DNA from: Chloroflexota bacterium
GTDB taxonomy: Bacteria > Chloroflexota > Anaerolineae > Aggregatilineales > Phototrophicaceae
Length of the DNA stretch: 39,050 bases
Assembly (NCBI GenBank): GCA_026713245.1
Contig: JAPOOU010000024.1
Span: forward strand, 1-39,050
Direction of reading: 5' to 3'
Under the pieces are notes generated by a model, which saw nothing but the letters and a program-made list of their open reading frames with translations, was not told the DNA's origin and ran no database searches. How positions within the stretch are numbered: position 1 is the stretch's first letter; each line of letters opens with the position of its first letter. Position numbers and translations under genes: made by a program. Shown here piece after piece: positions 13,850 to 21,205 of this stretch.

Positions 13850-13878
13850 GGGCGGCCTAGCGGGCCGCCCTGTCTTTG
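13850..13878 (+). terminator. Rho-independent-like terminator after ftsH
   Basis: GGGCGGCC (13850-13857) pairs perfectly with GGCCGCCC (13863-13870) around the loop TAGCG, and is followed by TGTCTTTGT. The short T run makes it a moderate terminator. It separates ftsH from the TIR cassette, which therefore probably has its own promoter or read-through supply. Confidence 0.6.
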
Positions 13879-13911: not shown

Positions 13912-14367
13912 TTGTCCGAGAGACTATTGCATGTTGGAGAAGACAAATATGATGTGTTTCTGTCTCATGCTTCGGAGGACAAAGATGATATAGCGCGCCC
14001 GCTTGCGCTGGCGCTTCGGAGACGCGGGTTGCGAGTATGGTACGACGAGTTTGAATTGCGCATTGGCGACAATTTGGTCGCCAAGCTGAACGCGGGCATG
14101 AACACAAGTCGATTTGGCATTCTCGTATTGTCAAAAGACTTTTTTGGAAAGGATTGGACCGAATATGAATTGAACACGCTAGAGTCCTTGGCAGTAACTG
14201 AAGATTACATATTATTCCCAATTTGGCACAATATCTCGGTGGAAGAGCTTAGAGCTTACCGTGCATCGTTAGCTAACATCTTTGCTAGAAGCACAGCAAA
14301 CCATACAATTGAAGAGATCGCTATTGAGATTCATGAAATCATTCTCGAATCAAGTATGTTATACTAG
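13912..14367 (+). CDS. TIR domain protein
   Basis: A 151-residue protein that is almost entirely one TIR domain. Box 1 is KYDVFLSHASEDKDD. It is followed by LRVWYDEFELRIGDNL, SRFGILVLSKDFFGKDW and TEYELNTLESL. The Glu of W-TxYEL lies where the catalytic Glu of NAD-cleaving TIR enzymes sits, so NADase activity is plausible but not shown. I chose TTG 13912 because GAGGGG ends about 9 nt before it; a TTG at 13876 lies inside the terminator tail. No sensor domain is attached. The downstream gene, 32 bp away, carries a closely similar TIR domain fused to DUF1883. Base composition is visibly more A/T-rich than ftsH, suggesting transfer. Confidence 0.88.
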   Translation: MSERLLHVGEDKYDVFLSHASEDKDDIARPLALALRRRGLRVWYDEFELRIGDNLVAKLNAGMNTSRFGILVLSKDFFGKDWTEYELNTLESLAVTEDYILFPIWHNISVEELRAYRASLANIFARSTANHTIEEIAIEIHEIILESSMLY

Positions 14368-14399
14368 GCTCATAAACAGACAACATTGAGGCGATATCG

Positions 14400-15158
14400 G
14401 TGAAGTTTGTAAAGCATGATTTAGGGCAGCGGTCAGGCGGAGAAATTGTCGAAGTCATCTTGAAAGGCGATTCCGCTAACGTGCGCCTTATGGATAGCTC
14501 CAATTTCCAGTATTTTCGTAGCGGGCGCCGCCATCAATACATAGGCGGGCACGCCAAGCGATCGCCTGTACGGCTGCAGATACCAAGACCGGGGCACTGG
14601 TATGTAACAGTAGACTTAGGCGGATACAAGGGCAAAGTGAACTCCAGCGTACGCATGCTGCCAGGCAAGCTGCGTCCACTAGTTGAGACGCCGCTTTCCA
14701 CTATCCCTACATTATTAAGAGACGAACCTAACGTTACGTACGATGTATTCATATCACATGCATCAGAAGATAAAGATGAAGTGGTAAAGCCGTTGGCCAA
14801 TGCGCTTCTCGCAGGGGGACTTTCGGTATGGTATGACGACTTTGAACTTAAGATTGGCGACAGCTTACGCCGGAATATTGACCGAGGTATCACTTCCAGT
14901 CGCTTTGGTGTCGTTGTCCTGTCAAAGGCGTTCTTCAAAAAGGGATGGACCAATTACGAATTAGATGGACTGGTGACCAAAGCTCTAAGCGGGGATCAGG
15001 TGTTGCTTCCAGTTTGGCACAAGATTACAAAAGATGAGGTTGTTTCATATAGCGCGCCTCTTGCTGACAAGGTCGCTAGAAATACCAGCACTCAGACAGT
15101 GGAAGAGATAGCGGACGAAATAGTCGAAGTTGTTCAAGGCATACCAGTCGAAGTCTAA
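14400..15158 (+). CDS. DUF1883-TIR fusion protein
   Basis: A 252-residue two-domain protein. Residues 1-95 match what I know of DUF1883: KFVKHDLGQRSGGEIVEV, NVRLMDSSNFQYFRSGRRHQYIGGH, IPRPGHWYVTVDLGGYKG, a compact beta-rich domain often joined to TIR. Residues about 115-250 are a TIR domain: YDVFISHASEDKDE, LSVWYDDFELKIGDSL, SRFGVVVLSKAFFKKGW and TNYELDGL, with the probable catalytic Glu retained. The start is GTG 14400 with GAGG just upstream. The TIR part is clearly paralogous to the preceding gene, and the DUF1883 part to the following one. A sensor (DUF1883) plus NAD-consuming effector (TIR) is my inference. Confidence 0.88.
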   Translation: MKFVKHDLGQRSGGEIVEVILKGDSANVRLMDSSNFQYFRSGRRHQYIGGHAKRSPVRLQIPRPGHWYVTVDLGGYKGKVNSSVRMLPGKLRPLVETPLSTIPTLLRDEPNVTYDVFISHASEDKDEVVKPLANALLAGGLSVWYDDFELKIGDSLRRNIDRGITSSRFGVVVLSKAFFKKGWTNYELDGLVTKALSGDQVLLPVWHKITKDEVVSYSAPLADKVARNTSTQTVEEIADEIVEVVQGIPVEV

Positions 15159-15235
15159 GTTGTTCGAATGGCATCGGACAATCTCCTGCGGTACGCCACG
15201 TCTGTAGTTGCTCATCCAACACGAAGTTCTGAACG

Positions 15236-15517
15236 ACGCAATTCATAAAACATGACTTGGGACAGAGGACAGACGGAGATATGGTTGAGGTAAGTCTTAC
15301 GGCTGCCGCCAACGTTCGCTTGCTGGACAGCTCAAATTTACGGATGTACCGCTATGGGCAGAAATTCAAGTATATCGGCGGCCATTACAAGCATTCGCCT
15401 GTTCAGTTCGAGATTCCGCGCTCGGGGCACTGGTACGTCGTTGTCGACTTGGGCGGCCATACAGGAGAATTAGATTCGTCGATTCGAATGTTGTCCGGAG
15501 AAGCTCTGTCAGGCTGA
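15236..15517 (+). CDS. Stand-alone DUF1883 protein, start codon uncertain
   Basis: A one-domain paralog of the N-terminus of the preceding gene: FIKHDLGQRTDGDMVEVSL, NVRLLDSSNLRMYRYGQKFKYIGGH, IPRSGHWYVVVDLGGHTG, ending at LSGEALSG with no TIR part. The codon aligned with the initiator of the upstream paralog is ACG (15236-15238), one change from ATG, and a TGA precedes it at 15230-15232. ATA or TTG 15257 are the other possible starts; TTG 15257 would remove the first conserved residues. Differences from the paralog are largely at synonymous or conservative positions, so the protein was probably under selection for a long time. It is either translated from a poor start or a recently silenced gene. 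Confidence 0.6.
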   Translation, partial: TQFIKHDLGQRTDGDMVEVSLTAAANVRLLDSSNLRMYRYGQKFKYIGGHYKHSPVQFEIPRSGHWYVVVDLGGHTGELDSSIRMLSGEALSG

Positions 15518-20050: not shown

Positions 20051-20062
20051 TTGGCGGGGTGC

Positions 20063-21205
20063 ATGAAGATGGCGATTGAGCGTATGCCGATAACGCCCGA
20101 GGTCTTGACCTGGGCGCGCGAGCGGGCGGGTTATGACGTCGATGAATTGCAGGAAGGCTATGCGCATTGGGAAAGCGGCCACAGCGCGCCAACCTATCTG
20201 GAGTTGGAGGCTTTGGCTGACCGCTTTGAGGTACCCACCGCCGTATTCTTCTTTCCAGAGCCGCCCGAATCGTCAGAGCTCAATCTTGAATTTCGCGCAC
20301 TGGGACCGGGTGCGTTCCAAACCCTCTCGCCCAGAATGCGCTTTCTGATGGAAAAGGCCCTTTATCGCAGTCGCAACCTCCAGTCTCTGTATGCAATCGG
20401 CAATGCGCCGAAGCGATTAATCGTCCATGACCTCCGAATCTCAGTCGACGACAGCCCTGAAGCGCTGGCTCGGCAAGTTCGAGACTATCTGGACATCTCC
20501 GTTGAAAAGCAATTCGAGTGGAGCAGTCGCGGCACATCGGCCGAGGAGTGGCGAGCTGCTCTGGCCAAGGTAGGAATCATGGTAACAGTTCTCGATTTTC
20601 GCCATGACGAATACCGGAGCTTTGCGCTATACGATCCGCGCTTCCCATTGATCTGTGTTTGCCGTTCAGAAGGTTTTTGGTCTGGCGGAGTGGTTACGAC
20701 CTGTCATTCGTTGATTCACCTGCTGTTTCATACCTGTGGATTGGACAGTCGCGACGATGCCTTTCTGGAGGGACTTGACGCCGAAAGCAGACAGATAGAA
20801 TTGCTCTGCAATCACGCTTCCGCCGAAATCGTCGCGCCGAGACTCGAACTAAAGAAAGTCTTGACCGGCCAAGTAGGTTCACGTGAAATAGCGGACATTA
20901 CTTCCAAACTTGCGCATCTATTCGGTGTCACTGGAAAATGGATGAACAACAGACTCTTGAAGCTGAACCTGGTTACGGAAAATGAGCATGAAGAAACACT
21001 AATGAGTTGGGAACGTCGGCCTGTAGGGGGAGGAGGAGGTTTACCGCCCCCTCCGGACATGTCCCTGATTGAGCTCGGGGAACCGTTTGTAAGACTGGCA
21101 TTCGAATGCTTCGACAGCGGGCAATTGGACGAAGACTCGTTGGCGGATTACCTCGAACTTGCCCCTCAATATTTCGACGATCTGCGTGATTTGCTGGGCA
21201 GGTAG
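20063..21205 (+). CDS. Xre/ImmA-IrrE family protein with degenerate metal site
   Basis: A 380-residue protein of the COG2856-like family (HTH plus ImmA/IrrE metallopeptidase domain). Residues about 1-60 are an Xre-type helix-turn-helix (TPEVLTWARERAGYDVDEL, TYLELEALADRFEVP), followed by VFFFPEPPE. The peptidase region should carry HExxH but reads TTCHSLIHLLFHTCG: both His remain and the catalytic Glu is Ser (TCG). IELLCNHASAEIVAP matches the downstream EAN.FAAELLMP segment. A VGGGGGLPPPPD linker lies near residues 325-336. ATG 20063 is preferred; ATG 20069, with GGGG 9 nt upstream, is possible. The stub of a DUF4411-like toxin gene follows, so this was probably the antitoxin. Confidence 0.85.
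   Translation: MKMAIERMPITPEVLTWARERAGYDVDELQEGYAHWESGHSAPTYLELEALADRFEVPTAVFFFPEPPESSELNLEFRALGPGAFQTLSPRMRFLMEKALYRSRNLQSLYAIGNAPKRLIVHDLRISVDDSPEALARQVRDYLDISVEKQFEWSSRGTSAEEWRAALAKVGIMVTVLDFRHDEYRSFALYDPRFPLICVCRSEGFWSGGVVTTCHSLIHLLFHTCGLDSRDDAFLEGLDAESRQIELLCNHASAEIVAPRLELKKVLTGQVGSREIADITSKLAHLFGVTGKWMNNRLLKLNLVTENEHEETLMSWERRPVGGGGGLPPPPDMSLIELGEPFVRLAFECFDSGQLDEDSLADYLELAPQYFDDLRDLLGR
21026..21060 (+). repeat. GC-rich imperfect palindrome inside the ImmA-like gene
   Basis: CTGTAGGGGGAGGAGG and, after TTTA, CCGCCCCCTCC encode the VGGGGGLPPPPD segment in frame. The first 9 bases CTGTAGGGG match the inner end of the MITE-like core (9372-9380). It may be a repeat fragment captured in frame. 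Confidence 0.4.

Follow-up and report, generated by a model that had tools for sequence, protein, structure and literature searches.

Amongst described systems, those closest to the cassette considered here include SpbK and the TIR NADases of the AbTIR type. The cassette lies in a 39,050-nucleotide stretch of DNA from a Chloroflexota bacterium (contig JAPOOU010000024.1; the whole stretch is hereafter called the window), in which three consecutive plus-strand genes after ftsH encode, in order, a TIR protein (gene 1), a DUF1883–TIR fusion (gene 2) and a DUF1883 protein (gene 3). This assignment, made in an initial annotation, holds on the reading frames and on Pfam scores above the curated cut-offs. 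SpbK, found on ICEBs1 of Bacillus subtilis, consists of a short N-terminal domain (residues 1–94), a linker and a C-terminal TIR NADase domain (residues 113–266) (PMC12847820); its N-terminal part binds the phage portal, clusters the TIRs and switches on NAD+ cleavage (PMC12847820; PMC11984713). TIRs of the AbTIR type require head-to-tail stacking for activity, since each active site spans two of them (PMC11364022). DUF1883–TIR fusions are themselves a listed domain architecture (PMC9153377), as the initial annotation had noted, and the free DUF1883 protein MrpB has a non-defence role in one case (PMC12393383).

Gene 2 is laid out like SpbK, with DUF1883 at residues 1–88, a linker and a TIR at about 113–246. 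The N-terminal domain of SpbK is, however, a four-helix bundle, whereas DUF1883 is modelled mostly as strands (predicted local distance difference test score 91.8 for gene 3), and SpbK is a single gene, whereas cis and trans forms coexist in the present locus. The likeness to the AbTIR-type NADases (AbTIR, PdTIR and TcpB) lies in the retained W-xxx-E motif and in the TIR_2 fold match of genes 1 and 2; the solved entries nearest to the TIR of gene 2 are 7uwg/7uxu (177 bits) and 8g83, named AbTIR (174 bits, E 3e-50). These matches are confined to the TIR part of gene 2, however, and NADase activity is here a prediction. Thoeris (ThsB and ThsA) is a further point of comparison: the PADLOC models of ThsB match the TIR parts of genes 1 and 2, but the cassette is without a ThsA-type gene. 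The STALD domain was matched in none of 34 genomes of the genus, in a search that gave no match in its controls either and did not extend to macro and membrane effectors. With DUF1883–TIR proteins, the PADLOC models (PDC-S66 and ThsB) match the TIR part only. A literature search found no paper dealing, in its accessible parts, with a split TIR/DUF1883 pair or with a role of DUF1883 in defence.

A paired locus with a variable middle gene

A solo TIR is present in 22 of the 34 genomes sampled from the window's genus. It is always the first gene of its locus and is followed by a DUF1883 gene in all 22; the co-occurrence that the initial annotation named as a check is thus conserved. What varies is the remainder. 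Writing T for the solo TIR, DT for the fusion and D for the solo DUF1883, six of the 22 loci are T–DT–D (G000, G128, G110, G103, G126 and G109; in the last, the contig breaks before D, which opens another contig beside oppF), six are T–DT (G108, G117, G119, G102, G100 and G123), nine are T–D (G111, G112, G130, G125, G101, G124, G113, G106 and G122) and one is T–D–D (G104). The fused gene is therefore absent from ten loci, and the solo TIR is unbroken in eight of these (seven of the nine T–D loci and the T–D–D locus). Only two solo TIRs are frameshifted, in G106 and G122, both T–D loci in which DUF1883 is whole. A 23rd genome, G107, retains only a broken DUF1883. The three-gene layout is real and shared, yet it is one state of a TIR and DUF1883 locus with a variable fused middle gene. 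It had been proposed that the solo copies are accessories of the fusion, for example decoys; the loci speak against this, the solo TIR being the constant element and the fusion the variable one. Because all 22 solo TIRs adjoin a DUF1883 gene, and seven T–D loci with an unbroken TIR have no fusion, the arrangement suggests that DUF1883 need not be fused to a TIR to act.

In the T–D–D locus (L103), the first solo DUF1883 starts like a fused copy (MKFVKHDLGQR) and then becomes more solo-like; it may be a recombinant of fused and solo copies.

The order was sampled with 154 genomes, 120 of them outside the genus, and DUF1883 occurs in 23, all from the window's genus (23 of 34), and in none of the 120 others. 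At E 1e-20, the extra solo TIR match in the genus is a 41% fragment in G129; it adjoins ftsH, has no usual start before the domain and is missing its C-terminal part. The order outside the genus gave a single 46% match, inside a longer frame (G131). In a phylum sample of 400 genomes, DUF1883 was found in eight, including the window's, and is fused to a TIR in three; four other Chloroflexota genomes have DUF1883 with no TIR in the fetched stretch (that of G395 starts ~500 nt from a contig end). A species-level scan, with one genome per species, covered 46 loci. In ten of them (L012–L021, which are genus members and not additional genomes) a solo TIR directly precedes the fusion. The other 36 comprise 32 with a fused gene and no second TIR within the fetched flanks (L039 is from Chloroflexota; frames are broken in L042 and L054), two with a TIR but no DUF1883 (L051 and L052), one with DUF1883 but no TIR (L057) and the T–D–D locus of G104 (L055). 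Neither a solo TIR of this clade nor a split T–D pair was seen outside the genus in the loci and genomes scanned, and the loci there that match over both domains do so at 51–69% identity (best segment).

We put at about even the chances that the cassette is an anti-phage module of the chromosome. DUF1883 would then be the predicted sensor or gatherer and the TIR the part predicted to cleave NAD+, DUF1883 being either fused or a separate neighbour. The facts that support this are the modules themselves in fused and split form, their fixed site, the constant pairing of solo TIR and DUF1883, the conserved glutamate, purifying selection, a mosaic of identities, the restriction-type genes found at the same site in some sister species and the occurrence of fused relatives on plasmids.

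The first DUF1883-bearing gene is probably expressed separately. In the window, an extended –10 promoter-like motif, TGTTATACT, stands before gene 2 at 14357–14365 on the plus strand, overlapping the end of gene 1. In every one of the 22 loci the pattern TGnTAnAnT lies 40–44 nt 5′ of the point where the first DUF1883 starts, against 0.38 loci expected from first-order resampling; it precedes the second DUF1883 in none of six and the solo TIR in nine of 22. It should be noted that the pattern was written after the spacers had been viewed, the constant distance not being part of it. The DUF1883-bearing gene is thus likely to have its own promoter, from which the second DUF1883 would be read through.

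Pairing and promoter bear also on a different proposal, namely that the locus is a toxin–antitoxin system in which the solo TIR is an always-active NADase, restrained by a free or fused DUF1883 and released by its loss. A solo TIR of this clade is never found without a DUF1883 gene, the frameshifted TIRs of G106 and G122 lie beside whole DUF1883 genes, and the first DUF1883 gene has a promoter-like motif of its own throughout, all of which such a system would explain. In six loci, however, the only DUF1883 available is itself joined to a TIR that is just as well conserved, which would be an odd antitoxin; none of the 32 fused loci outside the genus has a further TIR in the flanks that were fetched; and DUF1883 genes occur with no TIR in the fetched stretch in the four other Chloroflexota genomes. 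We regard this proposal as unlikely, if somewhat less so than the alternatives considered below.

Descent, conservation and selection

A tree built from 66 TIR domains unites all 22 solo TIRs in a single clade (100/100), separate from every fused TIR; two of the 22, the frameshifted copies, were entered via the larger piece of the broken frame, and the clade stays at 100/100 after plasmid and phage TIRs are added. The 12 fused TIRs of the genus fall instead among the fused TIRs of other bacteria, with L039 (90/89), and are not strictly one clade. They share their domain order with the DUF1883–TIR genes that occur singly in other phyla and on plasmids, and group with these rather than with the solo TIRs. 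A tree of 60 DUF1883 domains places the 17 solo copies in one clade (100/97) within the fused ones of the genus (29 rows, 99/83); the fused DUF1883 of G110 sits beside the solo clade. Both trees were rooted by midpoint only.

The glutamate of the W-xxx-E motif, expected of NAD-cleaving TIRs, is retained in 121 of 121 solo rows (the window's copy and the best 120 of 1005 database matches) and in 121 of 121 fused rows (the window's copy and the best 120 of 7887). The reading of gene 1 and gene 2 as carrying intact catalytic-type TIRs is confirmed to that extent, and a predicted NADase-type TIR effector with a DUF1883 partner is supported. Amongst related loci, the glutamate is kept throughout, although the frame of the TIR is broken in the two loci already mentioned.

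The ratio of non-synonymous to synonymous substitution (dN/dS) was estimated by NG86 for pairs with dS of 0.05–1.5 only. Its median is 0.095 for the solo TIR (32 of 231 pairs), 0.065 for the fused TIR (11 of 66), 0.123 for the solo DUF1883 (31 of 136) and 0.055 for the fused DUF1883 (20 of 66), with ftsH at 0.086 (210 of 210). These values indicate that all modules are under purifying selection and are maintained as proteins.

Such values weigh on the proposal, made in part in the initial annotation, that only the DUF1883–TIR fusion works in defence, the solo genes being leftovers of tandem copies, or tuners (decoys) derived from them. The fused gene is indeed the form seen in other phyla, gene 3 of the window is without a usual start (see below) and two solo TIRs are frameshifted. 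Yet ten of the 22 loci dispense with the fusion and keep a solo TIR and a solo DUF1883, with the TIR unbroken in eight, and both solo genes form separate clades with the low dN/dS medians just given, so that we consider this explanation improbable.

Apparent exchange of modules

Six sister species were compared (G000, G106, G110, G125, G126 and G128). Their flanking genes are at 88–96% DNA identity (five genes in 15 of 15 pairs, and a sixth, the epimerase, in the ten pairs fetched), whereas the cassette modules are at 61–95%, differing by module. Between G000 and G126, for example, nucleotide identity is 89% for the solo TIR, 91% for the fused DUF1883, 73% for the fused TIR and 89% for the solo DUF1883; between G126 and G128, the corresponding values are 69, 73, 92 and 73%. 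Sliding windows over eight chosen pairs show that identity steps at module borders, including the linker within the fused gene. Stepped identities together with low dN/dS point to recombination with diverged alleles, and not to rapid change in place; modules thus appear to be exchanged between species at a fixed site.

Correlations between distance matrices were examined in ten comparisons, uncorrected. Solo TIR and fused DUF1883 distances covary (r 0.58, p 0.0005, n=12; with ftsH taken out, r 0.58, p 0.0015), and solo TIR and solo DUF1883 distances do so weakly (r 0.25, p 0.04, n=16). The solo TIR shows no such relation to ftsH (r –0.08) or to the fused TIR (r –0.09), and within the fused gene the DUF1883 and TIR halves do not covary (r –0.16). 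A correlation is seen, however, between fused and solo DUF1883 distances (r 0.78, n=6), as well as between the solo DUF1883 and ftsH (r 0.27, p 0.015). The correlation between solo TIR and fused DUF1883 can be explained by the linkage of neighbours.

The site after ftsH

All 22 loci lie directly downstream of ftsH. For 19 of them the opp genes follow without a change of contig; those of G109 are on the contig that bears its solo DUF1883, and in G100 and G124 the contig stops before any opp gene is reached. An ftsH match is present in all 34 genomes, that of G121 being only a distant paralogue. Eleven genomes of the genus are without DUF1883, and the ftsH side was fetched for nine of these, as well as for G107; the two outside the nine are G118, whose contig ends at the ftsH side, and G121, which is without a close ftsH.

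Six non-carriers have both flanks, and in three of them the gap between ftsH and opp holds methylase and restriction-type genes: in G114, a DNA methylase together with a match to a type II restriction enzyme; in G129, the TIR fragment, an IceA-type open reading frame and a methylase; and in G098, a methylase, a restriction enzyme of CfrBI type and a RelE-like frame (27.2 bits against a cut-off of 27). IceA is of restriction type. The three methylase and restriction-type sets differ from one another (L170 1136–2909; L173 4457–5818; L176 3462–6017). The gap holds a DUF4015-type frame in G105 and G116 and one short frame in G115, and G120, G127 and G099 have other genes 3′ of ftsH. Amongst the gap frames searched in carriers, an IceA-type frame comes directly after the cassette in G100 and an Mrr_N frame occurs in G101; distant methylase matches lie to the left of the sigma factor gene in G100 and G109. 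Because the same gap carries restriction–modification genes in some sister species, it looks like a chromosomal defence slot, one that takes up unrelated defence-type genes.

The initial annotation likened the block to a transferred defence island. The defence setting stands, given the restriction–modification genes of the same gap; recent transfer is not supported, because the locus is at the same site after ftsH in 22 of 22 and is under purifying selection, though alleles and modules look exchanged within it. One locus, that of G128, has a transposase frame beside it, which is of IS4/5 type and lies shortly 3′ of the solo DUF1883 (L086 7555–8302).

Some record names hint at sponge samples. 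A role at the interface with an animal host, or within ordinary NAD signalling, rather than against phages, towards which the virulence-type TcpB amongst the nearest solved TIRs and the non-defence role of MrpB in one case (PMC12393383) might also point, is nevertheless improbable, leaving unexplained the restriction–modification genes at the same gap and fitting poorly with patchy presence (22 of 34 genomes) and mosaic module identities, as in defence loci, and with three proteins in which no signal peptide was noticed by eye (no prediction tool was run).

The cassette in the window

Gene 1 (13912–14367, plus strand) encodes 151 residues from a TTG start, matches TIR_2 at 68.8 bits and has its catalytic-type glutamate at residue 86. 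The start at 13912 is supported by the relative L016 (G100), in which a stop codon stands directly 5′ of the matching GTG. Gene 2 (14400–15158, plus strand) encodes 252 residues from a GTG start, with the glutamate at residue 187; its DUF1883 half occupies 14400–14672 (106.7 bits, residues 1–88) and its TIR half, which varies independently of the other modules, 14736–15137 (TIR_2, 73.3 bits, residues 116–210), both on the plus strand. Gene 3 (about 15239–15517, plus strand) matches DUF1883 (PF08980, Pfam curated cut-off 26 bits) at 92.3 bits.

A usual start codon is absent where the domain of gene 3 begins: there is no ATG, GTG or TTG from the stop at 15230–15232 to the domain. Across the genus, 17 solo DUF1883 genes start with ATG in 15 cases and TTG in one, the window's gene 3 being the one with none at that place. 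Because the first usual in-frame start, TTG at 15257, falls within strand 1 (residues 2–10) of the modelled fold and would truncate it, gene 3 may be decaying in the window genome, unless the assembly is in error.

The block is A/T-rich, as first described, its G+C content being 47.9%, whereas segments of equal size in the 39 kb average 57.9% (lowest 47.3%). The terminator proposed to precede it corresponds to a hairpin after ftsH at 13850–13870 on the plus strand, with a nine-pair stem (eight G–C) and a T-rich tail; the hairpin is present, but a scan found two such sites where shuffled sequences gave 1.6, so that it is weak evidence by itself. The left flank encodes a sigma factor and FtsH, the right flank two oligopeptide ABC ATPases, an epimerase and nucleoside diphosphate kinase. 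Seven more TIR_2 matches occur elsewhere in the window genome (on C183, C70 (two), C216, C93, C293 and C130). At 20051–21202 of the window, a frame of 384 residues resembles a regulator of the XRE/ImmA type in which HSLIH replaces HExxH; it has no Pfam match at 1e-4.

Relatives on plasmids and in phages

DUF1883–TIR relatives on plasmids number 114 records at a coverage of at least 80%, many of them probably near-copies. In three of five plasmid stretches, all enterobacterial (L199, L201 and L203), the DUF1883–TIR gene adjoins a divergently oriented TIR-like gene of 204 residues, which in L199 matches neither gene 1 nor gene 2; two of the three have a Tn3-family transposase nearby. The Polymorphobacter and Achromobacter plasmids have no divergent TIR-like neighbour beside DUF1883–TIR.

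A free DUF1883 gene is carried, in moron-like fashion, by the Pseudomonas phages vB_Pae_U8 and vB_Pae_U6 (L197 5001–5267; L204 501–767), on the opposite strand and adjoining a gene for the terminase small subunit or DNA packaging. This gene may represent a viral counterpart, or else a defence component borne by a prophage. Four IMG/VR contigs (L193–L196) encode a DUF1883 relative, and in PHROG 9211 DUF1883 and TIR are matched in separate parts of one profile.

A model for the locus

In the anti-phage model, infection would yield a phage-derived trigger, which DUF1883 would bind, clustering the TIRs; head-to-tail TIR contacts would then complete a composite active site, as described for AbTIR and SpbK (PMC11364022, PMC12847820), and loss of NAD+ would stop the infected cell. 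At T–DT loci, assembly would start on the fused protein and be prolonged by the solo TIR; at T–D loci the free DUF1883 would do the same job while not covalently attached. As parts recombine at the fixed site, their specificity would be renewed.

More tentatively, the observations may be drawn together as a modular TIR locus in which DUF1883 senses both fused and free, species trade modules singly at a defence slot, the fusion seeds a filament in which two old TIR lineages are mixed, and the DUF1883 of the two Pseudomonas phages is a viral answer; taken as a whole, we think this possible rather than probable.

DUF1883–TIR is spread over several phyla and plasmids, and the papers found assign DUF1883, in their accessible parts, no role in defence. 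In the lineage of the window, known here mostly through metagenome assemblies, a defence slot can now be named. Since the locus has fused, split and both forms, with apparent swaps at a module border, it allows one to ask which half senses and whether it does so in trans, and whether two TIR lineages co-assemble.
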